The notes beneath the pieces are model-generated. The model ran no database searches. It saw nothing but the letters and a program-made list of their open reading frames with translations, and was not told where the DNA came from. Source: an uncultured Eubacteriales bacterium (GTDB lineage: Bacteria > Bacillota > Clostridia > Peptostreptococcales > Anaerovoracaceae). From it: a stretch of 15,950 bases of DNA. Shown piece after piece: positions 1 to 14,886 of the stretch. The position numbers and the translations under genes are program-made. The stretch lies in assembly GCA_902796875.1 (NCBI GenBank), contig CADBQT010000055.1:1-15950 (forward strand), given 5' to 3'. How positions within the stretch are numbered: position 1 is the stretch's first letter; every line of letters begins with the position of its first letter.

Positions 1-1467
1 ACGGGATCGAAACAGAGTCCCGATGAAGGGTATCGGTTCTCCCACTGGACGGCGGACCGGACAGTTAAGCTTGAGGATGGGACGGTGATCGAAGAGGGAA
101 AGCTCCTTGACGAAGATCAGCTCCGCCAGGTGGTCCTGGAGGAGGAGATGACGTTTACCGCACACTTCGAGCCGGTCTGGAAGATCACCACGGAGGCGGT
201 CAATGGAACGATCACCCCGATGGAAGAGGACATCCCCACAGGAGAAAACCGGGTGGTGACCTATACGCCCGATGAGGGCCACCAGCTGGTGGAACTCGTG
301 GTGGACGGCGAGAAGAAAAGCATCCGGGAGCATCCGGTGTCCTATCGGTTTATCGATCTGGATGCCGATCACCACGTGAGAGCGGTCTTTGAACCGATCC
401 CGGCTCTGGAGATCGCCAAGTCCGCCGACCGGGAAATCTACAATGCGGGAGAAAAGGTGAAGTATACGGTGACCGTGAAGCAGACTGCGGAAGGTGCCCG
501 GGCGAGGAACGTGGTGATCCGGGACACTCTGCCATCCGGTCTGGTCCTGGTCAAGGACAGCTTCCAGGGGGAAGGGTTTCAGACGGTGTCGACCGGCGAC
601 GGAGGATATGAACTTCTGATAGCGGAACTGACCGATGAGCTGACCTACACCTACGAAGCCCTCACCCCGAAGGCGGCGGACGCCGAGGAACTGATCAACG
701 TGGTGACGGCGGAGGCAGATAACGTGCCGGGGGATCCGGTGCGGGATGAAGCCAGGGTGAGCGCATTTGCGCCGAAGCCGGTGATCGAAAAGACCGTCTC
801 CAACGAAGAGCCTTCGCCGGGAGATACGGTCACCTACACCATCTCCGTGAAAGAAACGGAAAAGGATATCGCCCTGTTCCATGCAGTGCTGACGGATCCT
901 TTGCCCGACGGCCTGGAACTGGTGGAAGGCAGTCTGACGCTGACGGGAGACGAAAGCGAAGTGGAAGCTGCGGATCAGGAACAGATCCGGATCGCCATTC
1001 CCCGCCTCGACGAGGAAACGGTGGTGAGCTTTCAGGCGAAGATCACGGCCAAAACCGAAGAGATCATAAACGAAGCCACCCTTACCGGTGAGGACATCGA
1101 ACCTCTCAAGGCCACTGCGAAACTGAAGGTAAAGGAGGAGCCCGCACCCCGGGATGCAAAGGCAACGGAAAGCGATGCCGACAAACCAGCAGCGGGAATA
1201 AAGGCAAAGACCATCGAGGATCCGACTTCCTCTGATCCGGAGGATCCGTCACCCGCCGATCCGAATGGGGCGCCTACAGAGAAGCCCGACGATGTATCTG
1301 GTCCTGCCGATCCCAAAAACCCGGGTCAGATGGATCCCGATTCCGGGGGAAACGGGGGCACGAAAACGGGTGATCACGTACCCTTGGCCGCCGCAGCCGC
1401 CATCTGCCTGGCCGCTCTGGCAGCTTTGATCACCATGCTGGCTGCGAGAAGACGGCAGAGTAAGTGA
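1..1467 (+). CDS. Cell-surface repeat protein with two DUF11-like domains and sortase-type anchor (5' partial)
   Basis: The frame is open from the first base, so the N-terminus and any signal peptide lie outside the window; the GTG at 85 is only an internal codon. In order: the end of an InlB/Flg_new-like beta repeat (nt 1-177, with GYRFSHW and FTAHFEP), a second such repeat (about 181-395, with YTPDEGHQL and VRAVFEP), two DUF11-like domains (about 403-770 and 775-1130, each opening with an E-K/S motif followed by G-(E/D)-x-V-x-YT(V/I)), an acidic Pro/Asp-rich linker (about 1138-1350), then KTGD, a hydrophobic Ala/Leu segment and RRRQSK at the end. This is the layout of a wall-anchored adhesin or stalk protein exposed outside the cell. 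Ligand unknown. It is transcriptionally separate from the pur operon, since a terminator follows. Family-level calls are by eye. Confidence 0.85.
   Translation, partial: TGSKQSPDEGYRFSHWTADRTVKLEDGTVIEEGKLLDEDQLRQVVLEEEMTFTAHFEPVWKITTEAVNGTITPMEEDIPTGENRVVTYTPDEGHQLVELVVDGEKKSIREHPVSYRFIDLDADHHVRAVFEPIPALEIAKSADREIYNAGEKVKYTVTVKQTAEGARARNVVIRDTLPSGLVLVKDSFQGEGFQTVSTGDGGYELLIAELTDELTYTYEALTPKAADAEELINVVTAEADNVPGDPVRDEARVSAFAPKPVIEKTVSNEEPSPGDTVTYTISVKETEKDIALFHAVLTDPLPDGLELVEGSLTLTGDESEVEAADQEQIRIAIPRLDEETVVSFQAKITAKTEEIINEATLTGEDIEPLKATAKLKVKEEPAPRDAKATESDADKPAAGIKAKTIEDPTSSDPEDPSPADPNGAPTEKPDDVSGPADPKNPGQMDPDSGGNGGTKTGDHVPLAAAAAICLAALAALITMLAARRRQSK
1357..1464 (+). other. C-terminal cell-wall sorting signal (KTGD variant)
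   Basis: The last 36 residues of the surface protein have the three parts of a sortase substrate: a TKTGD motif (nt 1360-1374), a hydrophobic stretch of about 23 residues rich in Ala and Leu, and a positive tail (ARRRQSK). The canonical LP of LPxTG is replaced by Gly-Gly before TKTGD. Variant xxKTGD signals are common in Clostridia, so anchoring by a sortase is likely, but no sortase gene lies in the window. Confidence 0.7.
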
Positions 1468-1483
1468 CGGGGTGAACGGAGGG

Positions 1484-1520
1484 CCGAAGATCAAAAGGTC
1501 CGAAGATGCAAAGATCAAAA
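1484..1520 (+). repeat. Short imperfect direct repeats after the surface-protein gene
   Basis: CCGAAGAT occurs at 1484-1491 and 1500-1507, and AAGATCAAAA at 1487-1496 and 1511-1520. They overlap and look like small slippage duplications in the spacer before the terminator. No function is evident. Confidence 0.5.
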
Positions 1521-1531
1521 ATCATTCAACG

Positions 1532-1572
1532 AAAAGCACTGTTTCCCACAAGTCGGGGGCGGTGCTTTTTTT
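1532..1572 (+). terminator. Intrinsic terminator of the surface-protein gene
   Basis: Arm AAAAGCAC (1532-1539) pairs with GTGCTTTT (1562-1569); inside it TCCC can pair with part of the GGGGG run. A run of seven T (1566-1572) follows. It sits 65 nt after the stop at 1467 and separates the surface-protein gene from the pur operon. Confidence 0.8.
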
Positions 1573-1688
1573 CGCTGCAAAGGCCGAAAACCAGCGATTC
1601 GTCCGTGGAAAAAAGTGTGTATCTGAGCGTTAGGAGAAAAAATCCGCACCATTTGCCAGAAATTGGAAGCCGCGAAAGAACCATACGA

Positions 1689-1711
1689 GCGGCGAATAAC
1701 CATTCGACCGC
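1689..1711. promoter_or_regulatory. Inverted repeat upstream of the pur promoter (candidate operator)
   Basis: GCGGCGAAT (1689-1697) is the reverse complement of ATTCG-CCGC (1702-1711, with one extra A at 1707), around the centre AACC. There is no T-run after it, so it is not a terminator. It ends 27 nt before the proposed -35 box, where a regulator could bind. The CGAA cores recall PurR-type PurBoxes, but spacing and flanks do not match the Bacillus consensus as I remember it. Nothing else is recognised between 1573 and 1738; the reading frames there look non-coding. Confidence 0.35.
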
Positions 1712-1738
1712 CAAATCGCATGGGAAGGGCAAAAACAC

Positions 1739-1767
1739 TTTAGATTTTCGGGTCGGTATGGTAAGAT
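1739..1767 (+). promoter_or_regulatory. Probable sigma-A promoter of the pur operon
   Basis: TTTAGA (1739-1744), a 17-nt spacer, then TAAGAT (1762-1767) preceded by TG at 1759-1760, an extended -10. Transcription would start near 1774, giving a leader of about 82 nt before purE. It is the best match in the 388-nt gap. Confidence 0.6.
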
Positions 1768-1773
1768 GAAATG

Positions 1774-1840
1774 GGTGAAGGCATACGGTTTGCTGATGAG
1801 TATGAGCGGACAGGTATCGACACCTGTCTTTTATCTTTTT
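1774..1840 (+). promoter_or_regulatory. pur operon leader with terminator-like hairpin (candidate attenuator)
   Basis: The leader can form a small stem CATAC (1782-1786) / GTATG (1800-1804). It then has a strong stem GACAGGT (1809-1815) / ACCTGTC (1822-1828) with a 6-nt loop, followed by the T-rich run 1829-1840 (TTTTATCTTTTT). The T-run touches the purE Shine-Dalgarno GGAGGAG (1841-1847). A terminator placed directly before the first gene usually means attenuation. I see no guanine-riboswitch, ykkC/PRPP or T-box hallmarks, and no clear antiterminator, so the signal sensed is unknown. It could also be a leaky, unregulated hairpin. Confidence 0.5.
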
Positions 1841-1855
1841 GGAGGAGAAGTGACG

Positions 1856-2338
1856 ATGAAAAAAGTAGGACTGATCATGGGAAGCGACAGCGATCTGCCG
1901 GTGGTGGAGAAGGCTGTCGATAAGTTGAAATCACTGGACGTTCCGTACGAAGCGCACATCTATTCGGCCCATCGGACACCCCTGCAGGCGAAGGAATTTG
2001 CAGAGGGGGCGGAGGAGGCCGGCTTCGGCGTGCTCATTGCCTTTGCGGGAAAGGCGGCCCATCTGGCCGGAGCTCTCGCGGCATCGACCACACTTCCGGT
2101 GATCGGCGTTCCGGTAAAATCCTCGACTTTGGATGGGCTGGATGCCCTGCTTTCCACAGTCCAGATGCCCAGCGGCATCCCGGTGGCCACGGTTGCCATC
2201 GACGGCGCAGCCAATGCGGCGATCCTGGCGGCTCAGATCATTGCCACGGGAGAGCCGGAACTGGCGAAGAGACTGAAAGAGGACCGTCAGGCGGCATCGA
2301 AGAAGGTGCTGGATAAAGACAGCAAACTGAAACTGTAA
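1856..2338 (+). CDS. purE: PurE, N5-carboxyaminoimidazole ribonucleotide mutase (class I type)
   Basis: A 160-residue cytosolic enzyme that makes CAIR, the carboxylation stage of IMP synthesis. Motifs: GSDSD (residues 9-13) for phosphate binding, SAHRTP (37-42) with the catalytic His39, AGKAAHLAG (64-72), PVIGVPV (81-87) and STVQMPSGIPVATVAI (100-115). AAHL in the third motif fits class I (N5-CAIR mutase) rather than class II AIR carboxylases, which have a RSN-type loop there. Length is normal. The ATG at 1856 is chosen because GGAGGAG (1841-1847) lies 8 nt upstream and MKKVGLIMGS is the typical start; the frame stays open to an ATG at 1766, but that extension is the leader. First gene of the operon. 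Class I enzymes normally need PurK, which is not seen here. Confidence 0.97.
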   Translation: MKKVGLIMGSDSDLPVVEKAVDKLKSLDVPYEAHIYSAHRTPLQAKEFAEGAEEAGFGVLIAFAGKAAHLAGALAASTTLPVIGVPVKSSTLDGLDALLSTVQMPSGIPVATVAIDGAANAAILAAQIIATGEPELAKRLKEDRQAASKKVLDKDSKLKL

Positions 2339-2359
2339 GAGAGAAAGGATATAAGCAAC

Positions 2360-3784
2360 ATGGGCGGATATTTTGGTGCAGTATCGACACGGGATGTGGT
2401 GATGGACATCTTCTATGGGACGGACTACCATTCCCACCTGGGAACCAAGCGGGGCGGAATGGCCATCTACGATGAAGAGATCGGCATCAAGCGGGAGATC
2501 CACAATATCGAGCATTCTCCCTTTCGGACCAAGTTTGAAGATCTGGTGACCCGGATCACGGGAACATCGGGGATCGGATGTATCAGCGACACGGATCCCC
2601 AGCCTCTGATGATCCATTCCAATCACGGCGTGTACAGCATCGTTATCGTCGGCGTGATCAATAATGAAGAGCAGCTGAAGCAGCAGTATCTGGACTTCAG
2701 CGGGGGACACTTCGAAGCCATGAGCGGCGGACGGGTGAATTCCACCGAACTGGTGGCTTCCCTCATCGACCAGAAGTCCGATTTCGTGGATGGCGTGAAA
2801 TTCGCCCAGAAATCCATCAAGGGCTCCTGTTCCATCCTGATTTTGAAGCAGGACGGGACCATTCTGGCGGCCCGGGACCGGATGGGGAGAACACCGGTGC
2901 TGATCGGCAAAGACGAGTACGGGCACAGCGTGTCTTTCGAACATTTCGCCTTTGAGAAACTGGGGTATGAGACCTGCTACGAGCTGGGCCCCGGGGAGAT
3001 CGTGGAGGTTCGTCCGAAGTCCGTCCGGTCCCTGGCTGAACCCCTGGAGAGAAAATGCATCTGCGCATTCCTCTGGTCCTACTACGGTTATCCCAACTCC
3101 ACCTACGAAGGAGTCAATGTAGAGACCATGCGGAACCGGAACGGCCGGCTCATGGCCCGGTTCGACAAGGAAAACGGCAAATCTTTCGATATCGACTATG
3201 TCTGCGGCGTCCCCGATTCCGGGATCGCCCATGCGGTGGGCTACTCCAACGAGTGCCACATCGACTACGCCCGTCCGTTCATCAAGTACACCCCCACCTG
3301 GCCCAGAAGCTTCATGCCGGTGAACCAGCAGGAGCGGAACCGGGTGGCCAAGATGAAGCTGGTCCCCGTTCATGAACTGATCAAGGGGAAAAAGCTTCTC
3401 TTCGTGGACGACAGCATCGTCCGGGGGACCCAGATGAGGGAGACGGTGGAATTCCTTTACGAGAACGGAGCGGAGGAGGTCCACATGCGGTCCGCCTGTC
3501 CGCCTATCATGTACGGGTGCAAATTCCTGAACTTCTCCCGGTCCACATCGGACATGGACCTGATCGCCCGGAAGACCATCCTGGAACTGGAAGGCAAGGA
3601 AGGGGAGAAGTACATCGAAGAATACAGCGACGGCCGGACGGAGCGGGGCAAAGCCCTGCGCCAGGCCATCTGCGAGGAACTTCATCTGAAGTCTCTGGAA
3701 TTCCAGAACATCGATCTGATCATCGAGGCCATCGGCCTGGATGAATCGGAAGTCTGCACCTACTGTTGGAACGGAAAGGAATAG
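2360..3784 (+). CDS. purF: PurF-like amidophosphoribosyltransferase with degenerate glutaminase domain
   Basis: 474 residues, cytosolic. Family role: transfer of ammonia to PRPP to give phosphoribosylamine, the first committed purine step. The phosphoribosyltransferase half is intact: GVPDSG (283-288), ARPFIKYTP (304-312) and the PRPP loop FVDDSIVRGT (348-357). Candidate 4Fe-4S ligands as in Bacillus PurF are Cys233/235, Cys387, Cys466 and Cys469 (CTYC). The N-terminal Ntn-glutaminase half (about 1-230) still aligns, but starts MGGYFG where active enzymes have (M)CG-xFG, so the nucleophile is Gly2. The conserved Arg-Tyr after GIG is replaced by SD (76-77), the Asn-Gly oxyanion pair is lost near 98-102, and an Asn127 stands at the usual Asp of the SDSE motif. 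Upstream in frame there is only the purE stop, so no cysteine start exists. It may use free ammonia, or be a paralogue. Start supported by GAGAAAGGA (2341-2349). Confidence 0.85.
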   Translation: MGGYFGAVSTRDVVMDIFYGTDYHSHLGTKRGGMAIYDEEIGIKREIHNIEHSPFRTKFEDLVTRITGTSGIGCISDTDPQPLMIHSNHGVYSIVIVGVINNEEQLKQQYLDFSGGHFEAMSGGRVNSTELVASLIDQKSDFVDGVKFAQKSIKGSCSILILKQDGTILAARDRMGRTPVLIGKDEYGHSVSFEHFAFEKLGYETCYELGPGEIVEVRPKSVRSLAEPLERKCICAFLWSYYGYPNSTYEGVNVETMRNRNGRLMARFDKENGKSFDIDYVCGVPDSGIAHAVGYSNECHIDYARPFIKYTPTWPRSFMPVNQQERNRVAKMKLVPVHELIKGKKLLFVDDSIVRGTQMRETVEFLYENGAEEVHMRSACPPIMYGCKFLNFSRSTSDMDLIARKTILELEGKEGEKYIEEYSDGRTERGKALRQAICEELHLKSLEFQNIDLIIEAIGLDESEVCTYCWNGKE

Positions 3785-3787
3785 CCC

Positions 3788-4831
3788 ATGAGCAAGGATT
3801 CGAGATCGGAGGCCTATGCAGCCTCAGGAGTGGACATCACCGCCGGATACAAAGCGGTGGAGCTGATGAAAGAGCACGTGGGCAGGACCCGGACCGACGG
3901 GGTCCTCTCCGATGTGGGAGGATTCGGCGGACTCTTCGCCCCGGACATCTCCGGGATGAAAGAGCCGGTCATGGTCAGCGGGACCGACGGCGTGGGAACG
4001 AAGCTGAAACTGGCTTTCCTGGCTGACCGTCACGATACGGTGGGCATCGACTGCGTGGCCATGTGCGTCAACGACATCGTCTGCGCAGGAGCACAGCCTC
4101 TGTTTTTCCTGGACTACATCGCCTGCGGCAAGAACGTGCCGGAGCGGATCGCCCAGATCGTCAAAGGGGTATCCGAAGGATGCGTCCAGTCGGGAGCGGC
4201 CCTTATCGGAGGTGAGACGGCGGAGATGCCGGGATTCTATCCGGAGGACGAATACGACCTGGCGGGATTCGCCGTAGGCATGGTGGACAAGAGCCGGATC
4301 CTGGACAAGACCAGGGTGGAAGAGGGGGATGTGATCATCGCCCTTCCTTCGAGCGGCGTCCATTCCAACGGCTTTTCCCTGGTGAGAAAGGTCTTCGATG
4401 TGGAAAACAGTGAGATCGACCAGCCGGTGGAAGCTCTGGGGGGCAAAGGCCTTCTGGAGACCCTGCTGACCCCCACGAAGATCTATGTGAAGCCGGTGCT
4501 GGCTCTCATGGAGGCGGTGGACCTTAAGGCGGCGGCTCACATCACCGGAGGCGGATTCTACGAAAACATTCCCCGGAGCCTTCCCGAAGGACTCTCGGCG
4601 AAGATCAAAAAAACGGATGTCCGAGTGCTCCCCATCTTCGATCACATTCAGAAGACCGGGAGCATCTCGGAGCACGACATGTTCAACACCTTCAATATGG
4701 GGGTGGGGATGATCTGCATCGTTTCCCCGTCGGAGGAGGAAGCGGCCCTTGCGGCCCTTCGCGGCGCCGGCGAGGACCCGTATGTCCTGGGCAGTGTAGT
4801 TTCATCGAATGAGGGGGTGATCCTGTGGTAA
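3788..4831 (+). CDS. purM: PurM, phosphoribosylformylglycinamidine cyclo-ligase (AIR synthetase)
   Basis: 347 residues, the usual length. It closes the imidazole ring of FGAM with ATP to give AIR. Motifs of the PurM/ATP-binding family: SGVDITAGYKAVELMK (13-28), SGTDGVGTKLKLA (64-76), CVAMCVNDIVCAGAQP (89-104) with the Asn-Asp metal/phosphate site, and GGETAEMPGFY (141-151). The ATG lies 3 nt after the purF stop, with GGAAAGGA (3773-3780) as ribosome binding site inside the end of purF, which indicates tight translational coupling. The 3' end overlaps the next gene by 7 nt. Nothing unusual. Confidence 0.98.
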   Translation: MSKDSRSEAYAASGVDITAGYKAVELMKEHVGRTRTDGVLSDVGGFGGLFAPDISGMKEPVMVSGTDGVGTKLKLAFLADRHDTVGIDCVAMCVNDIVCAGAQPLFFLDYIACGKNVPERIAQIVKGVSEGCVQSGAALIGGETAEMPGFYPEDEYDLAGFAVGMVDKSRILDKTRVEEGDVIIALPSSGVHSNGFSLVRKVFDVENSEIDQPVEALGGKGLLETLLTPTKIYVKPVLALMEAVDLKAAAHITGGGFYENIPRSLPEGLSAKIKKTDVRVLPIFDHIQKTGSISEHDMFNTFNMGVGMICIVSPSEEEAALAALRGAGEDPYVLGSVVSSNEGVILW

Positions 4832-6153
4832 AGACACGGATCGCCGTTTTCATTTCCGGAGGAGGAACCAACCTTCAGGCCCTCATCGATGCCCAGAAGA
4901 GGAGAGAGATCGTAAGCGGTGAGATCGTCCTGGTCCTGTCCTCCAGTCCACAGGCCTACGGCCTGGTCCGGGCGGAGGAGGCGGGGATCACCACGGCGGT
5001 GGTCAGCCGAAAGGAAGCGGGAAGTCAGGAGGCCTTCGAAGAGAGCATCCGGGCAGTCCTGGCGGAGCACGACATCGACCTGATCATCCTGGCGGGATTC
5101 ATGAAGATCCTGAGCGCCGACTTTACCCGGGCCTACGATAAGCGGATCATCAACGTCCACCCGTCCCTGATCCCGGCATTTTGCGGAAAAGGTTGTTACG
5201 GTCTCAAGGTCCACGAGATGGCTCTGGATTACGGGGTCAAGCTTACGGGGGCCACCGTTCACTATGTCAACGAGATCCCCGATGGCGGGGAGATCATCCT
5301 TCAGCGGGCGGTGCCCGTGGAAGAAGGGGATACACCGGAAGTTTTGCAAAAGCGCGTCATGGCAGAGGCGGAGTGGAAGATCCTGCCCCAGGCGGCGGAA
5401 ATCGTAGCGAGGAGGCTAATGATGGAAAAGAACAACAGTGGAATCTACAGCGTGGCGGACATCGGCGCCGGCCTTGCAGTCAACGCCTATCCGGGACGGG
5501 GCATCGTCATCGGCGCCTCGCCGGCGGGAAAGGCGGTCTGCGCCTACTTTATCATGGGCCGGAGCGACAACAGCCGGAACCGGATCTTCTCCGAAAAGAA
5601 CGGGGAGATCTTCACTGAGCCCTTCGATCCTTCGAAGGTGGAGGATCCGTCCCTGATCATCTATGCGGCGGTCCGCAAGCAGGATAACCACCTCATCGTC
5701 ACCAACGGAGATCAGACGGACACCATCTACGACTTCCTGGCCGACGGCAAGACCTTCGAGGAGGCTCTGGCCACCCGTCAGTTCGAGCCGGATCATCCCA
5801 ATCTGACCCCCAGGATCAGCGGAATGATCGATCTCGAAGAAGACGGCTTCGGCTACCGGATGAGCATCCTTAAGAGCATGGATCCGGAAGGACACCGGTG
5901 CGGCCGGTACACCTTCGTCTATGAACCGGAGGCAGGCCTTGGTCATTTCATCCATACCTACGAGCAGGACGGAAATCCTCTGCCCACCTTCCAGGGCGAG
6001 CCGGAGCGGGTGAATGTCCCGGAGAGCATCGATGCCTTTGCGGACGAGATCTGGAACAGCCTCGACGAGGACAACAAGATCTCCCTCTACGTCCGGTACA
6101 CGGACCCGGCCACGGGAGAGTACGAGGATAAGCTGATCAACAAGAACAAATAA
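4825..6153 (+). CDS. purN: PurN-PurO fusion: GAR formyltransferase + archaeal-type IMP cyclohydrolase
   Basis: One uninterrupted 442-codon frame. Residues 1-198 are PurN (10-formyl-THF-dependent GAR transformylase): FISGGGTNLQALIDA (9-23), LAGFMKILS (89-97), catalytic Asn110, His112 and Asp153 (INVHPSLIP, IPDGGEIILQ), and a normal PurN end (AEAEWKILPQAAEI, 180-193). Residues 200-442 are a complete PurO-like IMP cyclohydrolase, which closes FAICAR to IMP: NAYPGRGIVIG (220-230), AYFIMGRSDNSRNRIF (240-255), VTNGDQTDTIYD (292-303), TPRISG (328-333), GHFIHTYEQDGNP (373-385) and SLYVRYTD (420-427). In relatives these are normally separate proteins of about 200 and 240 residues. The GTG start has GAGGGGG (4811-4817) 7 nt upstream and overlaps purM by 7 nt. 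No frameshift is visible in either half. The junction carries an embedded ribosome binding site and ATGs (separate entry). Confidence 0.9.
   Translation: MVKTRIAVFISGGGTNLQALIDAQKRREIVSGEIVLVLSSSPQAYGLVRAEEAGITTAVVSRKEAGSQEAFEESIRAVLAEHDIDLIILAGFMKILSADFTRAYDKRIINVHPSLIPAFCGKGCYGLKVHEMALDYGVKLTGATVHYVNEIPDGGEIILQRAVPVEEGDTPEVLQKRVMAEAEWKILPQAAEIVARRLMMEKNNSGIYSVADIGAGLAVNAYPGRGIVIGASPAGKAVCAYFIMGRSDNSRNRIFSEKNGEIFTEPFDPSKVEDPSLIIYAAVRKQDNHLIVTNGDQTDTIYDFLADGKTFEEALATRQFEPDHPNLTPRISGMIDLEEDGFGYRMSILKSMDPEGHRCGRYTFVYEPEAGLGHFIHTYEQDGNPLPTFQGEPERVNVPESIDAFADEIWNSLDEDNKISLYVRYTDPATGEYEDKLINKNK
5410..5424 (+). promoter_or_regulatory. Internal ribosome binding site and ATG pair at the PurN/PurO junction
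   Basis: AGGAGG (5410-5415) lies inside the frame, 3 nt before ATG 5419 and 6 nt before ATG 5422, both in frame with the PurO domain (Met199, Met200). TAATG (5417-5421) and TGATG (5420-5424) overlaps, typical of coupled stop/start junctions, are present but their stops are in another frame. This would allow a free PurO of 242-244 residues as well as the fusion, and suggests that two overlapping genes were joined by a frame change. Confidence 0.65.
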
Positions 6154-6207
6154 GAACAGGATCACTGAAGAGAAACGTTTTCCCACCAGGAGAAAGGAGA
6201 CCAGACA

Positions 6208-7392
6208 ATGAAAGAATTCGAACTGAAGTACGGCTGCAACCCGAACCAGAAGCCGGCGAAGATCTACATGCACGACGGAGGGGAACTGCCCATCACCATC
6301 GTCAACGGCCGGCCGGGCTACATCAACTTCCTGGATGCCTTCAACTCCTGGCAGCTGGTCCGGGAGATCAAGGCGGCCACGGGACTTCCCGCAGCCACTT
6401 CCTTCAAGCACGTCAGCCCGACCTCTGCGGCGGTGGGAAAGAAGCTGTCCCCCGAGATGAAGAAGGCCTACTTCGTTGATGACATCGAAGGTCTGGATGA
6501 TTCCCCCCTGGCCTGCGCCTATGCCAGAGCCCGGGGAACGGACCGGCTTTGCTCCTTCGGCGACTTCATCGCCCTGTCCGATGTGTGCGATGAGACCACG
6601 GCCAGGATCATCGGCCGGGAGGTCTCCGACGGCGTCATCGCTCCGGGTTACACGGAGGAAGCTCTGGAGATCTTAAAAGGCAAGAAGAAAGGCAACTACA
6701 ACGTGATCGCCATCGATCCGGACTACGAGCCGGCCGAGCAGGAGATTCGCCAGGTCTTCGGGATCACCTTCGAGCAGGGACACAACAACGTGAAGATCGA
6801 CGAAAGTCTTCTGGAGAATATCGTAACGAAGAATAAGGATCTCCCCGATGAGGCAAAGACGGATCTGATCATCGCCCTCATCGCCCTGAAGTACACCCAG
6901 TCCAACTCGGTGTGCTTCGCCATGGACGGCCAGTGCATCGGCATCGGCGCCGGCCAGCAGTCCCGGATCCACTGCACCCGTCTGGCGGCCAGCAAGGCGG
7001 ACACCTGGCATCTGCGGATGCACGAGAAAGTGCTGAACCTGCCTTTTCGGGAGGATCTGCCCAGAGCGGTCAGAGATAACGCCATCGACGGCTACGTCAA
7101 CGAGTACGAAGAGGACGTCTGCGCCGAGGGGAACTGGCAGAAGTATTTCACGGAGCAGCCTGAGCCTCTGACGAGAGAGGAAAAGCGGGCCTATCTGGAT
7201 ACGAAGAAGGGCGCATCCCTTGCTTCCGACGCATTCTTCCCCTTCGGGGACAGCATCCAGAGGGGAGCCATGAGCGGCGTCTCCTACGTGGTCCAGCCCG
7301 GAGGATCCATTCGGGATGAGGAAGTGGTCGCGGCCTGCGACGAGTACGGCGTGGTGATGATCTGTAACGGCGTTCGCCTGTTCCACCACTAA
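6208..7392 (+). CDS. purH: AICAR formyltransferase, stand-alone (PurH transformylase domain only)
   Basis: 394 residues, cytosolic. It moves a formyl group from 10-formyl-THF to AICAR, giving FAICAR. It begins directly with the transformylase region (ELKYGCNPNQKPA, 5-17) and lacks the N-terminal MGS-like IMP cyclohydrolase domain of about 200 residues found in bifunctional PurH. Motifs: the catalytic Lys67-His68 in SFKHVSPTSAAVG (65-77), SFGDFIALSD (116-125), APGYTEEALEILK (145-157), YTQSNSVC (229-236), GQCIGIGAGQQSR (241-253), and the terminal RLFHH resembling the RHFRH-type end of the family. The ring-closing partner is the PurO domain just upstream. Start ATG follows AGGAGAAAGGAG (6189-6200). 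54 nt separate it from the fusion gene, with no terminator. Confidence 0.93.
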   Translation: MKEFELKYGCNPNQKPAKIYMHDGGELPITIVNGRPGYINFLDAFNSWQLVREIKAATGLPAATSFKHVSPTSAAVGKKLSPEMKKAYFVDDIEGLDDSPLACAYARARGTDRLCSFGDFIALSDVCDETTARIIGREVSDGVIAPGYTEEALEILKGKKKGNYNVIAIDPDYEPAEQEIRQVFGITFEQGHNNVKIDESLLENIVTKNKDLPDEAKTDLIIALIALKYTQSNSVCFAMDGQCIGIGAGQQSRIHCTRLAASKADTWHLRMHEKVLNLPFREDLPRAVRDNAIDGYVNEYEEDVCAEGNWQKYFTEQPEPLTREEKRAYLDTKKGASLASDAFFPFGDSIQRGAMSGVSYVVQPGGSIRDEEVVAACDEYGVVMICNGVRLFHH

Positions 7393-7438
7393 GGCCAGAA
7401 CGTCCGGCCGGGAAGGCCAGGGAAGGAGTAAAGCGCAA

Positions 7439-8707
7439 ATGAAGATCATGGTAGTTGGCGGCGGCGGCCGCGAGCACAGCATCATAAAAAAACTGAAAGA
7501 AAACCCGGACATCGAAAAGCTTTACGCTCTGCCGGGCAACGGCGGCATCGCGGCGGATGCCCAGTGCGTTCCCATCGGAGCCACGGACATCGAAGCCATC
7601 GCCGCCTTTGGACGGGAAGAAGCCATCGATTTCGCCGTGGTGGCCCCGGACGATCCTCTGGCCATGGGGTGCGTGGATGCCCTTCACAGTGAAGGGATCC
7701 CCTGCTTTGGCCCGGACAAGAACGCGGCCATCATCGAGGCCAGCAAGGTCTTCGCCAAGGATCTGATGAAGAAATACGGGATCCCCACCGCTCAGTACGA
7801 GGTCTTCACCGATATGGAAAAGGCCCTGGAATATCTTGAAACGGCGCCCATCCCCACGGTGGTCAAGGCGGACGGACTGGCTCTGGGCAAGGGCGTGATC
7901 ATCGCCGAGACCAGAGAGGATGCGAAAGCGGCGGTCCGGTCCATGATGGAAGAGAAGAAGTTTGGCGACAGCGGCAGCCGGGTGGTCATCGAGGAGTTCC
8001 TCACCGGCCCGGAAGTTTCCGTTCTGTCCTTTACCGACGGCAAGACCATCGTTCCCATGGTCGCTTCCCAGGATCACAAGCGGGCCCTGGACGGAGACCA
8101 GGGACTGAACACGGGAGGCATGGGCGTGGTCGCTCCCAATCCCTGCTACACGAAGGAGATGGCGGATCGGTGCATGGAGGAGATCTTCCTGCCCACCATC
8201 CGGGCCATGAAGGAGGAGGGAAGGACCTTCAAGGGATGCCTTTACTTCGGCCTGATGATCACGGAGAACGGTCCCAAGGTGATCGAGTACAACTGCCGCT
8301 TCGGCGATCCGGAGACCCAGGCCGTACTGCCTTTGCTCCGGTCGGATCTGCTGACCATCATGAAGGCGGTGGAAGAGGAGAAACTGGCGGAAGCGGACGT
8401 GGAGTTTGCGGACGAGGCCTCCTGCTGCGTGGTCATGGCCTCCGGCGGATATCCGCAGAGCTACGAGAAGGGCCATCCCATCACCATGGGGGAGCTGGAC
8501 GAAAACGTGGACGTGTTCGTGGCCGGCGCCAAACTGGAGGACGGTGTACTCAAGACCTCCGGCGGCAGAGTGCTGGGCGTCACGGCGGTGGCGGACACTC
8601 TGGAAGAGGCCATCGAATGCGCCTACCGGAACGTGGAGAAGATCCGGTTCGAGAAGGCCTACTGGCGCAAAGACATCGGGAAAAGAGCTTTGGAAGCATT
8701 GAAATAA
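7439..8707 (+). CDS. purD: PurD, phosphoribosylamine-glycine ligase (GAR synthetase)
   Basis: 422 residues, normal length. It joins glycine to phosphoribosylamine using ATP. Domains: N-terminal Rossmann-like part with MVVGGGGREHSI (4-15) and LPGNGGIA (31-38), then an ATP-grasp with VVKADGLALGKGV (141-153), EEFLTGPEVSV (185-195), LNTGGMGVVAPNP (223-235) and the metal site VIEYNCRFGDPETQ (281-294), and a C-terminal lid with GGRVLGVTAVADTLEEA. It acts on the product of the PurF step and feeds PurN. GGAAGGAG (7421-7428) precedes the ATG by 10 nt. The 46-nt gap before it is rich in GGCC repeats but has no T-run, so it does not look like a terminator. Confidence 0.98.
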   Translation: MKIMVVGGGGREHSIIKKLKENPDIEKLYALPGNGGIAADAQCVPIGATDIEAIAAFGREEAIDFAVVAPDDPLAMGCVDALHSEGIPCFGPDKNAAIIEASKVFAKDLMKKYGIPTAQYEVFTDMEKALEYLETAPIPTVVKADGLALGKGVIIAETREDAKAAVRSMMEEKKFGDSGSRVVIEEFLTGPEVSVLSFTDGKTIVPMVASQDHKRALDGDQGLNTGGMGVVAPNPCYTKEMADRCMEEIFLPTIRAMKEEGRTFKGCLYFGLMITENGPKVIEYNCRFGDPETQAVLPLLRSDLLTIMKAVEEEKLAEADVEFADEASCCVVMASGGYPQSYEKGHPITMGELDENVDVFVAGAKLEDGVLKTSGGRVLGVTAVADTLEEAIECAYRNVEKIRFEKAYWRKDIGKRALEALK

Positions 8708-8721
8708 GAAAGGATACAGCG

Positions 8722-11700
8722 ATGGTAGATCGGATATATGTGGAGAAAAAAGAGGCGGCTGCCGGCGAAGCGAAGGCCCTGCTCAGTGAGATCCGGGACT
8801 TTTTGGGGATCAAAGGGCTTACGAAGCTTCGGATCCTGAACCGCTACGACGTAGAGGGAGCAGACCCGGATCTGTTCGACACGGCTATCGTCAAGGTCTT
8901 TTCCGAGCCTCAGGTGGACCGGATCTACGCAGGCCTGGAGTCGGCGGGGATCGAAAAGGGAGCCCATGTTCTCGCGGTGGAGGCCCTGCCCGGTCAGTTC
9001 GACCAGCGGGCGGATTCGGCGGCCCAGTGCATCCAGATCATATCCTGCGGGGAGCGGCCTCTGGTGGCCTACGCCAAGGTCTACGTTTTCGAAGGCGACC
9101 TGACGGAGGACGATCTTGCCGCTATCCGGCGACACGTGATCAACCCGGTGGAGACCAGGGAAGCGGCCCTGGACGTGCCGGAGACTCTTCAGACCATCTA
9201 CGATGTGCCCCCGGATGTGGCGGTCCTGGACGGATTCACCGACCTGGACGAGGCGGGCCTTTCGGCCATGATCTCCGATCTGGGACTGGCCATGGACCTG
9301 GGAGATCTGAAGGTCTGCCAGGCCTACTTCCGTGAGGAAAACCGGCCGCCTACCATGACGGAGATCCGGATGATCGACACCTACTGGTCCGACCACTGTC
9401 GGCACACCACCTTCAATACGGTGATCGACGACGTGTCCTTCGCCGATCCGGTGCTCCAGGGAGCATATGAGGAGTATCTCAAGACCCGCGAGTCGCTGGG
9501 CCGGACGAAGCCGGTCACCCTGATGGATCTCGGGACCATCGCCGCAAAGGCAATGAAGGCCGCGGGAAAGATGGACGGTCTGGACGAATCGGAGGAGATC
9601 AACGCCTGCACGGTGAAGATCAAAGCCCGGATCGACGGTGTGGATGAGGACTGGCTTCTTCTCTTTAAGAACGAGACCCATAACCATCCCACGGAGATCG
9701 AGCCCTTCGGCGGAGCGGCCACCTGTATCGGCGGCGCCATCCGGGATCCCCTGTCGGGAAGAGCCTACGTCTACTCGGCCATGCGGATCACGGGAGCTGC
9801 GGATCCCCTGAAGCCTTTGGAAGATACCCTGAAGGGCAAGCTCCCCCAGCGGAAGATCGTCACCTCGGCTGCCGATGGATATTCCTCCTACGGCAACCAG
9901 ATCGGCGTGACCACCGGACTGGTGGAGGAGATCTACCACGACGGTTATGCGGCCAAACACATGGAACTGGGCGCAGTGGTGGGCGCGGCCCCGGCGGAAA
10001 ACGTGGTCCGGGAAAGACCGGTCCCGGGAGACCTGGTGATCCTTCTCGGCGGCAAAACGGGAAGAGACGGCTGCGGCGGAGCTACCGGTTCATCCAAATC
10101 CCACGACATGACCTCCCTGGAGAGCTGCGGAGCCGAGGTCCAGAAAGGCAATGCTCCCGAAGAGAGAAAACTTCAGCGTCTGTTCCGGAGAGGGGAAGCC
10201 TCCCGGATGATCCGGCGCTGTAACGACTTTGGCGCCGGCGGCGTGTCGGTGGCCATCGGCGAACTGGCCGACGGCCTGGACATCGACCTGGATGTGGTGC
10301 CGAAGAAATACGAAGGCCTGGACGGAACGGAACTGGCCATCAGCGAATCCCAGGAGCGGATGGCTGTGGTCATCGATCCGGCGGATCTGGAGCGGTTCAC
10401 CGCCATGGCGGATGAAGAGAACCTGGAGACCACCGTGGTGGCGAAAGTCACGGAGGAGCCCCGGCTGGTGATGCACTGGCGGGGCAAGACCATCGTGGAC
10501 GTGGCCAGAAGCTTCCTGGATTCCAACGGCGCCGAAAAACACGTCCATGTGGAGGCGCCGGCGGCGGTCATGCCGGAGAAAAAGGTGGAAGGGTCCTTCG
10601 CGGACAACTGCCGTGCTCTGGCCACAGACCTGAACGTCTGCTCCAAGCAGGGACTTTCGGAGAAATTCGACTCCACCATCGGCGCGGGCACGGTGCTCAT
10701 GCCCTTTGGCGGCAAGTACCAGAAGACACCTCCTCAGGTCATGGCCCAGAAGATCTCCGTGGAGGACAGAGTTTCCTCGACGGTGTCCCTCATGAGCTGG
10801 GGATACAATCCCTTTATTTCCGAGGCCAGTCCCTATCACGGAGCCTACCTTGCGGTAGTGGATTCCGTCTGCCGGCTTTATGCCGCGGGAGGCGGAGATC
10901 AGGCCAAGTACCTCAGTTTCCAGGAATTCTTCGAAAAACTGGGACAGGATAAGGCCAGCTGGGGGAAACCCTTCGCCGCCCTTCTCGGCGCCTACCGGGC
11001 CCAGATGGGTCTTCAGACGGCGGCCATCGGCGGCAAGGACTCCATGAGCGGGACATTCGAGAACATCCACGTTCCGCCGACCCTGGTCTCCTTTGCCGTG
11101 ACCACCACGGAGGCGGACCGGGTGATCTCTCCGGAATTCAAAGGTGCCGGCCACCCGGTATGGCTCCTCGCTCCGGAAACGGGTGAGGACGGATTGCCGG
11201 ATCTCACGTCCCTGAAGAAGAATCTGGATCTGGTCCTTTCGCTGACCGGCGAGGGCAAAGTCCTCTCCGCCTGGACCGCAGGCTTCGGCGGCGTCGCCGA
11301 GGGCGTGATGAAGATGGCTCAGGGCAACCGGATCGGATTCACTTATGAGGACGACTACACACTGGATCAGCTCTTCGGCTGGAACTACGGAGCATTCCTT
11401 CTGGAAACGGAACCGGGAGCAGAGGACAGCCTGAAGGCGGCGGGAGCATCTCTTCTGGGAGAGACCACCGATGCTCCCGAGATCCGAAAGGGAGAAGAGG
11501 TCCTTGCCATCGAAGAACTGGAGAAGATCTCCGAGGACAAGCTGGAATCCATCTATCCCTATAACATCGAAACCACTCCTCAGGAGCTGCCGGATCTGCG
11601 TTGGGAAAAGGAAAAGACCCCTGTGGGTCCCGTGGTCCGCACGGCCCGTCCCAAGGTGCTGATCCCGGCATTCCCGGGGACCAACTGTGAATACGACTCG

Positions 11701-12444
11701 GCCAGAGCCTTTGCGGCTGCCGGTGCCGAGCCCAAGATCCAGGTCATCCGCAACCGGACGGCCCAGGACATCGCCCAGTCCGTGGAGGACTTTGCCGCGG
11801 CCCTGAAGGAATCCCAGATGTTCTTCATTCCCGGCGGATTCTCCGGAGGAGACGAGCCCGACGGATCCGGCAAATTCATCACCGCATTCTTCCGCAACCC
11901 CCAGGTGGCGGAGGCGGCGACGGAGCTGTTGGACGCACGTAAAGGTCTGGCCGCCGGCATCTGCAATGGCTTCCAGGCGCTGATCAAACTGGGGCTGGTG
12001 CCCTTTGGCAAGATCACGGAGATGAATGAGAACTGTCCGACCCTGGCCTTGAACGAGATCGGCCGGCATCAGTCCAAACTGGTCCGGATCCGGGTGGCTT
12101 CTGTCAAGTCTCCCTGGCTTTCCCGGGCAGAGCTGGGCGGCGTCTACACCGTTCCCATCTCCCACGGAGAGGGACGGCTCATCGCACCCCCTGAAGTCCT
12201 GGCGGACCTGGCGGAAAACGGACAGATCGCGACCCAGTATGTGGATATGGAGGGAAAGTCCTCCGACGACATACGGTTCAATCCCAACGGATCCATGTAC
12301 GCCATCGAAGGCATGACCTCACCGGACGGCCGGGTATTCGGCAAAATGGGTCACGCGGAACGTGTCGGGGACAACCTGTACAAAAATGTTCCCGGCAGGT
12401 ACGACATGGAGATGTTCGCTTCCGCGGTTGATTATTTCCGGTAG
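8722..12444 (+). CDS. purL: PurL, single-chain phosphoribosylformylglycinamidine synthase
   Basis: 1240 residues: the large one-polypeptide form, which contains what PurS, PurL and PurQ do separately in Bacillus. It converts FGAR to FGAM using glutamine and ATP. Order: PurS-like N-terminal domain (about 1-150), linker motif DTYWSDHCRHTTF (219-231), the two PurM-like synthase halves with KNETHNHPTEIEPFGG (316-331), and a C-terminal class I glutaminase with FPGTNCEYDSARAF, nucleophile Cys1081 (GICNGFQ), His1148 and Glu1150 (SHGEGR). The glutaminase is intact, unlike that of the PurF homologue in this operon. Start is the ATG at 8722 after AAGAAAGGA (8705-8713); the frame is open far upstream only as a shadow of purD. 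Last gene of the operon; its end overlaps the convergent membrane-protein gene by 13 nt. Confidence 0.98.
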   Translation: MVDRIYVEKKEAAAGEAKALLSEIRDFLGIKGLTKLRILNRYDVEGADPDLFDTAIVKVFSEPQVDRIYAGLESAGIEKGAHVLAVEALPGQFDQRADSAAQCIQIISCGERPLVAYAKVYVFEGDLTEDDLAAIRRHVINPVETREAALDVPETLQTIYDVPPDVAVLDGFTDLDEAGLSAMISDLGLAMDLGDLKVCQAYFREENRPPTMTEIRMIDTYWSDHCRHTTFNTVIDDVSFADPVLQGAYEEYLKTRESLGRTKPVTLMDLGTIAAKAMKAAGKMDGLDESEEINACTVKIKARIDGVDEDWLLLFKNETHNHPTEIEPFGGAATCIGGAIRDPLSGRAYVYSAMRITGAADPLKPLEDTLKGKLPQRKIVTSAADGYSSYGNQIGVTTGLVEEIYHDGYAAKHMELGAVVGAAPAENVVRERPVPGDLVILLGGKTGRDGCGGATGSSKSHDMTSLESCGAEVQKGNAPEERKLQRLFRRGEASRMIRRCNDFGAGGVSVAIGELADGLDIDLDVVPKKYEGLDGTELAISESQERMAVVIDPADLERFTAMADEENLETTVVAKVTEEPRLVMHWRGKTIVDVARSFLDSNGAEKHVHVEAPAAVMPEKKVEGSFADNCRALATDLNVCSKQGLSEKFDSTIGAGTVLMPFGGKYQKTPPQVMAQKISVEDRVSSTVSLMSWGYNPFISEASPYHGAYLAVVDSVCRLYAAGGGDQAKYLSFQEFFEKLGQDKASWGKPFAALLGAYRAQMGLQTAAIGGKDSMSGTFENIHVPPTLVSFAVTTTEADRVISPEFKGAGHPVWLLAPETGEDGLPDLTSLKKNLDLVLSLTGEGKVLSAWTAGFGGVAEGVMKMAQGNRIGFTYEDDYTLDQLFGWNYGAFLLETEPGAEDSLKAAGASLLGETTDAPEIRKGEEVLAIEELEKISEDKLESIYPYNIETTPQELPDLRWEKEKTPVGPVVRTARPKVLIPAFPGTNCEYDSARAFAAAGAEPKIQVIRNRTAQDIAQSVEDFAAALKESQMFFIPGGFSGGDEPDGSGKFITAFFRNPQVAEAATELLDARKGLAAGICNGFQALIKLGLVPFGKITEMNENCPTLALNEIGRHQSKLVRIRVASVKSPWLSRAELGGVYTVPISHGEGRLIAPPEVLADLAENGQIATQYVDMEGKSSDDIRFNPNGSMYAIEGMTSPDGRVFGKMGHAERVGDNLYKNVPGRYDMEMFASAVDYFR

Positions 12445-14333
12445 AGAGGATCGGGCAGAGAGGCGAAGATCTCCGGATCCGGCGCCTCGCCCATGTCTGT
12501 GATGCCTTTGCCCGTATGAGGGTGGAAGTGGGTGTAGATCACGTCGCCGATGAAGGCGGCGGCAAGACAGATGGTCATTGTCCTCACCAGCCTGTTGTTG
12601 ACCCGCATGAGGAGGGTGTCCAAAACGGGGCCCAGGAAGTAGACCAGGGCGCTTCCCAGGACCGCAAAGGCAAAGAGGCCTTCGGCGCAGATCCTTCCGT
12701 CGAGATTAAGAAAATAATTGGAGTAGTCCCACCACCGCATCCCGGTGGTGGCTTCCATTATGTACGATGTCAGATACTCTACGAAGCCGCAGAGCGTGGC
12801 GATGCCGAAGAATTCGGCCAGGGGTTTGGTGCGCAGGCGGCATAAAACGATGAGGATCAGCGCTCCGCCGGCGCCGTATATGGGGATCCATGGTCCGTGA
12901 AGGCTGCCCCGATTGACCAGTTCTCCGGTCTGGATGATGAAGAGGATCACTTCCCAGAGCCACCCGATCATGGCAAAGAGGAAGAACATGAGCCCCAGGT
13001 TCCACAGGGTGTAACAGCGAATGAAGTTGGTCTGGATCCTTTCCACCAGAGGAACCTCCCGCAGGCGGGGATTCAGCCGGTCCGGATAGGCCAGGCCGCC
13101 GGCCTGCTCCATATCTCCCCGGACCCGGTATTTCCGGTTTTCCACTTCCTGATATCTCTCCTTGGCTTCCATGGTGCCCATCCAAAGAGCCATGTTTTCG
13201 GCAAAGAATCTCTTGACTCCCGTAAGCTCGATCTCGTATTTGTCCAGCTCTTCCATCTCCTTCGCAGAATCCCGATAGGTCTCCCGGAGAAGCCTGGGCT
13301 CAGCCTTCTCGAAAAGGAAGGTGTCATCCAAAGCTTCCGTCCCGGGAATGCCGGCTTCGATGGCCTGCTGACGGACCCGGGCGTAGTATTCCGCCATGGC
13401 GGACAGCTTGTAGGGGGCGTAGAAGAAGATGTTGATCACGCCGAAGGAGGCGAAGCCAAGAGCCAGCCATCCCAGAAAGGTCAGCTCAAGTTTGAAGCAT
13501 TCCATCTTGTGTCCGTCCATCATCCGCCGGGAAAGGGCCACCGCCTCCCGTGGGTCGATGTCCGGATTTTCCGCAGCGATATAGGGGACAAGATAGTAGG
13601 AATACCGCTTGATGAAGGCGCCGGCAATGGTGAAGAACCAGAGGGCGTAAAGGAAATCCGCCCAGATCACCGTCAGGGATACCCGGACCCAGCGCCGGGC
13701 GTGCTTCACATGGAGTATATGGTGAAACGGGACCTTCTCGTAGAGCCGGCATTCCTGATACATCCGCCGGACGATGACCGTATATGGCTCCCGCACCAGG
13801 ACAAAGACAAACGAGTAGAGAAGGGCGGCCAGAATAACGAAAAGGACCACCGACAGGGTGGGAGACCTGGTGATGGTGAAGATGGCCTGCAGGACTTTGA
13901 CGTACAGGTGGCCGGAGGTCACCGTGCCGATGGTGGAAGCCAGAAAGCCCTCTGTGTGGCCAAGGGCTCCGCCGCCGGAATTCTCATAGAGGGCCTGCAG
14001 CTCGTCGGAAAGCTCGATCCCCTCGATCACGTTTCCCATGGCGATATCCCGAAACACTTCCGAACCGGGATCCGAATACCGGGCGGTGTCGAAGCTCTCA
14101 GGCTGACCGGCATGACCCGGCAGCTCCGTATGGGTGGCATGAAGGAAGAGCGCTCCTCCGGAGAACTCGCTTCCCAGCATGATGGCGATCAGGGCGAGGA
14201 GGATCAATAGCCCGTAGTGACGTTTCATGGTCTTCAGGGCGCTCTTCTTGATGGCTCTTCGTTCCTTCCGCCCCATGAGAGGGGTATTTTCACCGGTTTC
14301 CGGCGTTGGGGTGGTGCTGGGTGTGGTGTTCAT
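12432..14333 (-). CDS. DUF975 + putative ABC-transporter type IV (CmpB/DUF1113-like) membrane protein
   Basis: 633 residues, integral membrane. The N-terminal region (about 20-320) resembles DUF975: a basic start (MGRKERRAIKKSALKTMKR, 20-38), helices near 40-55, 158-180, 221-242 and 281-304, and the signature SYYLVPYIAAENP (245-257) plus ALSRRMMDGHK (266-276). A charged cytosolic linker follows (about 315-440). The C-terminal region (about 441-612) resembles the putative ABC-transporter type IV family: FAMIGWLWEV (453-462), VNRGSLHGPWIPIYGAGG (473-490), CGFVEYLTSYIMEA (515-528), RWWDYSNYFLNLDGRICAEG (533-552) and HTGKGITD near the end, with about five helices. Function unknown for both. The start has GGAAGGA 10 nt upstream (plus-strand region 14343-14352) and its own promoter. 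The N-terminal 19 residues are Thr/Pro-rich, so a start at Met20 is possible. Convergent with purL. Confidence 0.85.
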   Translation of the reverse strand: MNTTPSTTPTPETGENTPLMGRKERRAIKKSALKTMKRHYGLLILLALIAIMLGSEFSGGALFLHATHTELPGHAGQPESFDTARYSDPGSEVFRDIAMGNVIEGIELSDELQALYENSGGGALGHTEGFLASTIGTVTSGHLYVKVLQAIFTITRSPTLSVVLFVILAALLYSFVFVLVREPYTVIVRRMYQECRLYEKVPFHHILHVKHARRWVRVSLTVIWADFLYALWFFTIAGAFIKRYSYYLVPYIAAENPDIDPREAVALSRRMMDGHKMECFKLELTFLGWLALGFASFGVINIFFYAPYKLSAMAEYYARVRQQAIEAGIPGTEALDDTFLFEKAEPRLLRETYRDSAKEMEELDKYEIELTGVKRFFAENMALWMGTMEAKERYQEVENRKYRVRGDMEQAGGLAYPDRLNPRLREVPLVERIQTNFIRCYTLWNLGLMFFLFAMIGWLWEVILFIIQTGELVNRGSLHGPWIPIYGAGGALILIVLCRLRTKPLAEFFGIATLCGFVEYLTSYIMEATTGMRWWDYSNYFLNLDGRICAEGLFAFAVLGSALVYFLGPVLDTLLMRVNNRLVRTMTICLAAAFIGDVIYTHFHPHTGKGITDMGEAPDPEIFASLPDPLYRK

Positions 14334-14368
14334 ATCGTGCTTTTCCTTCCGGTAGATAATCTGCCCAA

Positions 14369-14397
14369 AGTATACTACAGTCCCCGCCGATTGACAA
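14369..14397 (-). promoter_or_regulatory. Promoter of the minus-strand membrane-protein gene
   Basis: Read on the minus strand: TTGTCA (14397-14392), a 17-nt spacer, TATACT (14374-14369). Five of six bases match consensus in each box. Transcription would start near 14362, about 28 nt before the ATG at 14333, leaving room for the GGAAGGA site. Confidence 0.75.
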
Positions 14398-14432
14398 CGA
14401 AAGGGGGGATCCCCATGAATTCAAGCTTTTGC

Positions 14433-14461
14433 TTGCATTGGCCTTGTGGGTATGGTAGTAT
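14433..14461 (+). promoter_or_regulatory. Probable promoter of rpsO
   Basis: TTGCAT (14433-14438), a 17-nt spacer, TAGTAT (14456-14461) with TG at 14453-14454, an extended -10. The -35 is weak. The start would be near 14468, giving a leader of about 83 nt. The -10 region shares TATGGTA with the pur promoter. Confidence 0.55.
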
Positions 14462-14477
14462 ATGCGATGTGAGTTTA

Positions 14478-14524
14478 CCTGCGGCTGAGATACACGACAC
14501 TCCGACGTGGATCCCGGCTCCAGG
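14478..14524 (+). promoter_or_regulatory. Structured rpsO leader (candidate S15 autoregulatory element)
   Basis: A bulged hairpin can be drawn by hand: CCTG (14478-14481) with CAGG (14521-14524), CGG (14482-14484) with CCG (14514-14516), and GAT-A-CACG (14489-14496) with CGTG-G-ATC (14506-14513). CTGA and GCTC are unpaired bulges. It ends about 12 nt before the rpsO Shine-Dalgarno. S15 represses its own mRNA through leader structures in several bacteria, but I cannot match this fold to a known class, and a CTGAGA stretch in it is not a TPP riboswitch. Confidence 0.4.
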
Positions 14525-14550
14525 CATATGTGACAAAAGGAGAAATTATT

Positions 14551-14817
14551 ATGATCACCACGGAAAAGAAAGCTGAGATCATCAAGGAGTTTCAGACGAA
14601 GGAAGGCGACACCGGATCTCCCGAAGTTCAGGTAGCGATCCTGACCTATCGGATCAACGATCTGAACGAGCATCTGAAAGTCCATCAGAAGGACCACCAT
14701 TCCCGCAGAGGACTGCTGAAGATGGTCGGTCAGAGAAGAAACATCCTCAACTATCTGAAGGAGAACGATCTGGAGAGATACAGAAGCCTGATCGCCCGTC
14801 TGGGACTGAGAAAGTAG
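14551..14817 (+). CDS. rpsO: 30S ribosomal protein S15
   Basis: 88 residues, standard length. A primary 16S rRNA-binding protein of the small subunit platform. Family hallmarks: [17 protein letters not shown] (20-36), [19 protein letters not shown] (39-57), [11 protein letters not shown] (61-71) and [13 protein letters not shown] at the end. AAAGGAG (14536-14542) lies 8 nt before ATG 14551; the GTG at 14530 has no such support. The gene has its own promoter and terminator. The common neighbour pnp does not follow; a polysaccharide deacetylase does. Confidence 0.99.
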
Positions 14818-14833
14818 GATCATACAGATTGTT

Positions 14834-14860
14834 AGGCGGAACGCAAATGTTCCGCCTTTT
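14834..14860 (+). terminator. Intrinsic terminator of rpsO
   Basis: AGGCGGAAC (14834-14842) pairs perfectly with GTTCCGCCT (14849-14857) around a 6-nt loop, followed by T to 14860. It lies 16 nt after the rpsO stop. The T-run is short (four), so some read-through into the next gene is possible. Confidence 0.88.
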
Positions 14861-14886
14861 GCGTAAAATTGAGAAGGGACAATAAG

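Follow-up and report, generated by a model that had tools for sequence, protein, structure and literature searches.

An in-frame PurN-PurO fusion gene in the purine operon of an uncultured Eubacteriales bacterium

The window analysed here is a stretch of 15,950 nucleotides (contig CADBQT010000055.1 of GenBank assembly GCA_902796875.1, positions 1 to 15,950) from an uncultured Eubacteriales bacterium, which is probably gut-dwelling. It possesses a gene in which the sequences for PurN, the glycinamide ribonucleotide (GAR) formyltransferase, and for a PurO-type inosine monophosphate (IMP) cyclohydrolase are joined in a single reading frame.

Organization of the fused gene

The features of the gene are as follows.

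4825..6153, plus strand: purN::purO fusion gene, 442 residues, with a GTG start that overlaps the 3' end of purM
4837..5394, plus strand: PurN domain (GAR formyltransferase), residues 5-190, with N110, H112 and D153
5395..5433, plus strand: junction, residues 191-203, closing part of a helix (171-203) that the predicted model shows as one with the last PurN helix
5410..5415, plus strand: AGGAGG, Shine-Dalgarno-like, inside the reading frame, a probable relic of the purO ribosome-binding site
5419..5424, plus strand: two in-frame ATG codons (residues 199 and 200), candidate start of a 243-residue, 27.1-kDa PurO
5488..6105, plus strand: PurO-type IMP cyclohydrolase domain (PF07826), residues 222-427

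No internal stop is found in the frame at 4825-6153, and the calculated mass of its product is 48.8 kDa. Both halves are matched by Pfam far above the cut-offs, PF00551 (Formyl_trans_N) in residues 5-190 with 176.1 bits (cut-off 26.1) and PF07826 (IMP_cyclohyd) in residues 222-427 with 216.2 bits (cut-off 28.1). The PurN half also scores 200.9 bits with TIGR00639 (PurN), above the NCBIfam equivalog cut-off of 150.1. A first-pass annotation of this DNA had described the frame in this way, as a complete PurN with catalytic Asn110, His112 and Asp153 followed by a complete PurO-like domain, and its description is borne out. The three PurN residues stand at the places named and are invariant in all 118 distinct loci compared, the window included; we take them to correspond to the catalytic Asn-His-Asp of E. 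coli PurN (106/108/144). In the PurO half, Y222, R225, R246, Y280, E321 and R330 are likewise invariant in 118 of 118 loci, and they align to identical residues of Methanothermobacter thermautotrophicus PurO (2ntk). Arg, Glu and Tyr side chains are described as taking part in PurO catalysis in the accessible part of PMC6797443.

In the predicted model, for which the alignment consisted of the window and 58 of 71 prepared rows, the PurN half has the PurN fold and the PurO half the N-terminal nucleophile (Ntn) hydrolase-type fold of PurO. The VIA-align comparisons cover the chains ranked first by Foldseek. The domain limits proposed at first (residues 1-198 and 200-442) are right within some residues, but the last PurN helix, 171-203, runs across the proposed boundary. 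As the same annotation had pointed out, the two enzymes act at non-consecutive steps, PurN at step 3 and IMP cyclohydrolase at the last step of the pathway.

Conservation and repeated origin of the fusion

Distribution of the fusion was surveyed in 49 genomes of the genus, own genome included. A stop-free fusion is present in 19 of them: the own genome, 17 with a complete copy and G024, where the contig ends within it. Identity to the window protein is 66-76% for the 18 fusions outside the own genome. Measured from one fixed anchor to the other, the junction spans 90 nt in 17 of the 19 fused rows; the window has 87 nt and the contig-cut G024 75 nt. In G020 and G044 a single stop separates the PurN and PurO halves, and other members carry the genes as stop-separated neighbours or, as in G005, G018 and G021, about 1.5 kb apart. 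No match to the fusion protein was obtained from G002 and G060 in the genus search. The metagenome-assembled genome (MAG) G014 contains a fused copy (L008) along with a second copy with a stop (L132), and the split copy adjoins G020 in the tree; contamination is likely.

The possibility that two separate genes were joined artificially, by an assembly that missed a base or a stop, was considered against these data. A TAA TGA pair lies in the +1 frame exactly at the junction, as expected after gain or loss of a base, and the split in many relatives falls at this very position. On the other side, 18 other members of the genus have the same in-frame join with a near-constant length, and separate joins are present outside the genus. 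This genus-wide junction pattern is not explicable by a one-base error in the window, and the sequencing-error explanation is rejected because the join and the junction length are conserved; its probability is negligible. The first-pass annotation had allowed that close relatives might all be split, which the 19 fused genomes contradict. A +1 frameshift product ending at the TAA TGA was also considered and dropped, as by reasoning the stop follows almost automatically from the Leu/Ile-Met-Lys/Met codons.

Beyond the genus, a stop-free fusion was also found in G495, G564, G565 and G571 of the family, giving 23 of 349 genomes among the matches listed. Among 391 genomes drawn evenly from the class, no other stop-free match across both halves was found among the matches listed. 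In the phylum (an even draw of 398 genomes, E <= 1e-110) there were two matches, the stop-free window and G181 with one TAA. Of the named loci (80 kept of 249), nine are fused. Eight of these are copies of loci from the window genus, and the ninth is L086, a contig from a MAG with the name Sphaerochaeta (genome G741). Among 325 genomes of L086's phylum (Spirochaetota) searched at E <= 1e-60, 50 have a match, and two are stop-free across both halves, G741 (L086, 53% identity) and G1052 (L170, 44%); the other matches listed there cover one half only or carry a stop. Weaker fusions could be missed in the family and class, where the counts cover the matches listed, and the two phylum searches apply to the thresholds of 1e-60 and 1e-110.

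Altogether, 118 distinct loci have both genes within reach, 24 fused and 94 as stop-separated neighbours; purN and purO share the same frame in 61 of these 94. Two kinds of candidates were set aside. L137 (G057, reverse strand), which shows a PurM piece, a PurN tail and a PurO frame, probably reflects a deletion made in assembling this fragmented MAG, and it was not counted. Long PurO frames in G065, G115, G201, G299, G504, G521, G531, G537 and G629 were rejected as fusions; eight of them are unfused neighbours, and in G299 (L129) the PurO frame has 243 residues and the contig has the same length, 47,900, as that of the unfused L082.

To understand the relationship between fused and unfused loci, trees were constructed. 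The tree of PurN, PurO and the 5-aminoimidazole-4-carboxamide ribonucleotide (AICAR) formyltransferase of all 118 loci requires six state changes, at least five of them forced by starred branches, although such counts do not separate gain of the fusion from its loss. In a tree of 62 rows, a chosen part of the 118 which left out L014, L086, the long-branch L113, L084, L165 and L116, a single clade made up of the 18 genus fusions is not rejected in the approximately unbiased test (p-AU 0.54; 0.55 with the unfused L041 added) while a single clade of all 22 fused rows is rejected (p-AU 0.0022). A tree of 40 chosen rows that includes L170, in which L001 and L007 represent the genus fusions, gave five changes with a bootstrap range of 5-5. 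It distinguishes five fused groups: the window genus; L149; L150 with L151; L152; and L086 with L170 (100/98). Here the fused L149 is sister of the unfused L158 and the fused L152 sister of the unfused L167. The shared origin of L170 and L086 is less sure because the L170 branch is long. These comparisons show a genuine fusion that has been retained in many species and has arisen several separate times.

A probable relic ribosome-binding site and possible internal start at the junction

The AGGAGG at 5410-5415 lies six bases upstream of the ATG at 5422; these junction signals (5410-5424) are an addition to the first-pass annotation. Its predicted duplex with the anti-Shine-Dalgarno sequence (-11.6 kcal/mol) is stronger than that at all seven other in-frame ATG codons of the gene, and only 1% of synonymous shuffles attain this strength. 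The junction site is probably the old start of purO, and in the window subclade it may still be working. One gene could then yield two products, the fusion and a stand-alone PurO from the ATG at 5422 (or 5419), which would allow mixed oligomers and supply extra cyclohydrolase. The strength of the window site speaks for such a situation, together with the shuffle fraction of 0.026 or less in five of the 22 fused loci tested (L001, L004, L005, L007, L032), all from the window subclade. Against it, the fraction ranges from 0.098 to 0.70 in the other 17 loci, and although some start codon is present at the junction in 22 of 24 fused loci, L149 and L151 have none and L037 has a weak GTG only. Predicted pairing of -6 or lower is seen in 18/24 fused and 72/94 unfused loci, while pairing of -4 or lower is found in 20/24 fused loci compared with 94/94 unfused ones. 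The shuffle test is also flattered by picking the best start for each locus, and the loci are related to each other. A decaying relic accounts for the same facts, and two products are a tentative possibility, held clearly below even odds. The fused form alone can suffice, as the loss of the junction start in other fused loci suggests.

Operon context and interpretation

The fused gene is part of a purine operon with the order purE-purF-purM-purN::purO-AICAR formyltransferase-purD, followed by a long frame that looks like purL. The neighbouring genes are as follows.

1850..2338, plus strand: purE (Pfam, NCBIfam)
2360..3784, plus strand: purF-like gene, below the TIGR01134 cut-off
3788..4831, plus strand: purM, 7-nt overlap with the fusion gene (NCBIfam)
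6208..7392, plus strand: stand-alone AICAR formyltransferase without the PurH cyclohydrolase half
7439..8707, plus strand: purD (Pfam, NCBIfam)

The gene at 6208-7392 matches NF005492 with 659.8 bits (cut-off 415), in agreement with the earlier identification of this neighbour as a folate-type AICAR formyltransferase. It is the single match to PF01808, the AICAR formyltransferase family, in the own assembly. PF02142, the cyclohydrolase domain of PurH, gave no match in the own genome and was positive in 13 of 14 control genomes. Absence of a PurH is better supported by the single PF01808 match than by the lack of matches to PF02142, a domain that is also present outside PurH, in CarB. The fused PurO is the only candidate IMP cyclohydrolase detected by sequence in the assembly.

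The nucleophile of PurF is its N-terminal cysteine, and the PurF-like protein encoded at 2360-3784 (plus strand) begins MGGYFG, without an N-terminal cysteine. It scores 164-167 bits against the NCBI cut-off of 350 (TIGR01134), and elsewhere in the genome the only match lies in a 617-residue frame, probably GlmS. The Gly-Gly start is seen in 42 of 53 loci with an aligned start; the alignment starts later in the other 11. Outside the operon, the region 14530-15948 (plus strand) contains a 95-residue frame that looks by eye like ribosomal protein S15, and the following frame, from 14869 (plus strand), looks like a membrane-anchored polysaccharide deacetylase.

From sequence comparison and the predicted folds, with a probability of roughly 0.8, the product is a single bifunctional PurN-PurO enzyme that originated when tightly packed operon neighbours were joined. 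The PurN half would formylate GAR with 10-formyl-tetrahydrofolate (10-formyl-THF), and the PurO half would close formyl-AICAR to IMP after the separate AICAR formyltransferase of the next gene has acted. Both halves are presumably active, with the fused protein as the main product. The unfused genus member L041 has an ATGA overlap of purN and purO (by eye), and this is probably the kind of arrangement from which the fusion arose; loss of a stop or an indel would join genes lying end to end or overlapping, and the trees point to about five such events. The main consequence would most likely be that the two enzymes are tethered and produced in equal amounts, their function otherwise changing little; a role in dosage, or in a purine complex with the AICAR formyltransferase, had also been proposed in the first-pass annotation.

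Several points weigh against this interpretation. The PurO half reaches 56 bits with TIGR01922 (purO_arch), under the NCBI cut-off of 158.35, and for this reason it is better classed as PurO-like than as an archaeal PurO equivalog. The PF02142 control is unspecific for PurH, with Methanocaldococcus jannaschii also positive, and the assembly, with 267 contigs and 91.6% completeness, may lack a further gene. Because the ribosome-binding site is kept, some of the PurO could be translated on its own. The fusion is dispensable for the pathway, as close relatives live without it. The predicted template modelling score (pTM) of 0.62 leaves the placement of the two halves relative to each other unsure.

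One half of the protein could also be a passenger without activity. In L170 (reverse strand, frame from 1387) the PurN N-terminus is altered and the Asp motif shifted, both by eye, and its PurN half is possibly decaying. But the Asn, His and Asp are kept in the window and 117 other loci, as nearly are the PurO positions, and the own genome shows no other PurN except a 317-residue frame with 30% identity which is Fmt-like. An inactive half is very improbable.

A selected metabolon is a further alternative, and an unlikely one. It would bring PurO to the formyltransferases and physically couple the use of 10-formyl-THF to IMP closure. The AICAR formyltransferase is directly next in the fused loci read, except L014 (contig end), and Halobacteria, according to the accessible part of PMC3261824, fuse PurN to AICAR formyltransferase, so that the activities are joined in more than one way. 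The unsure domain placement in the model and the patchy occurrence of the fusion count against it; repeated joining of overlapping neighbours is expected without selection as well, and the patchy, repeated occurrence fits near-neutral joining as well as a metabolon. Still more doubtful is a design for two proteins, in which the 48.8-kDa fusion would form mixed assemblies and tether the extra 27.1-kDa PurO and the AICAR formyltransferase in a small metabolon and would recur on account of useful tethering.

Among known systems, the halobacterial PurN-PurH1 also joins PurN to another enzyme of the pathway, and a separate PurO-like gene is expected to provide the last step (PMC3261824, in the part available). 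Unlike this archaeal protein, whose partner is the AICAR formyltransferase, the window PurN is joined to PF07826, and PF01808 is the next gene. The vertebrate trifunctional GARS-AIRS-GART shares the GART (PurN) domain, from residue 808 onward, as a sequence and structural match; there GART is joined to steps 2 and 5 (accessible text of PMC10912719), whereas the window PurN is joined to PurO. PurH (ATIC) likewise combines two activities, one of them the IMP cyclohydrolase step, but its cyclohydrolase belongs to an unrelated family and is joined to the AICAR formyltransferase. M. thermautotrophicus PurO (2ntk, 1kuu) is a stand-alone protein of 22% identity, and its start corresponds to residue 220 or so of the fusion. 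The separate purN, purO (PF07826) and AICAR formyltransferase (NF005492) genes of relatives are of the same families and in the same order, with 57-71% (PurN) and 52-69% (PurO) identity in unfused neighbours; these have two stop-separated genes (94/118 distinct loci) in place of the single frame of the window.

PurO is called exclusively archaeal in the accessible part of PMC4177761, while the parts available of PMC6797443 and PMC5217386 report it in 22 of 1266 bacteria and list it in the proteome of Butyrivibrio proteoclasticus, respectively. PF07826 is present in at least 173 of 391 genomes of the window's class, at least 172 of them above the Pfam cut-off, and in two of 14 control genomes, both archaea. 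The first-pass view of PurO as an archaeal enzyme is right as to where the family was first described, but the family is common in the class. No mention of a PurN-PurO fusion was found in the accessible portions of the open-licence literature searched.

The PurN-PurO architecture is new as far as searched while its parts are ordinary, and it seems to be a genuine, if modest, alteration of a familiar pathway. The PurO-type proteins in at least 172 of 391 class genomes speak against an archaeal-only PurO. PurN with an IMP cyclohydrolase is an added domain pairing, and together with PurH and the halobacterial PurN-PurH1 it means that a natural fusion exists for every pairing among the closing step and the two formylation steps that depend on folate, with cyclohydrolases of two unrelated families in PurH and in the PurN-PurO fusions. 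The split, overlapping and fused loci, with or without an internal start, form a natural series for testing whether tethering of these enzymes matters or is near-neutral.
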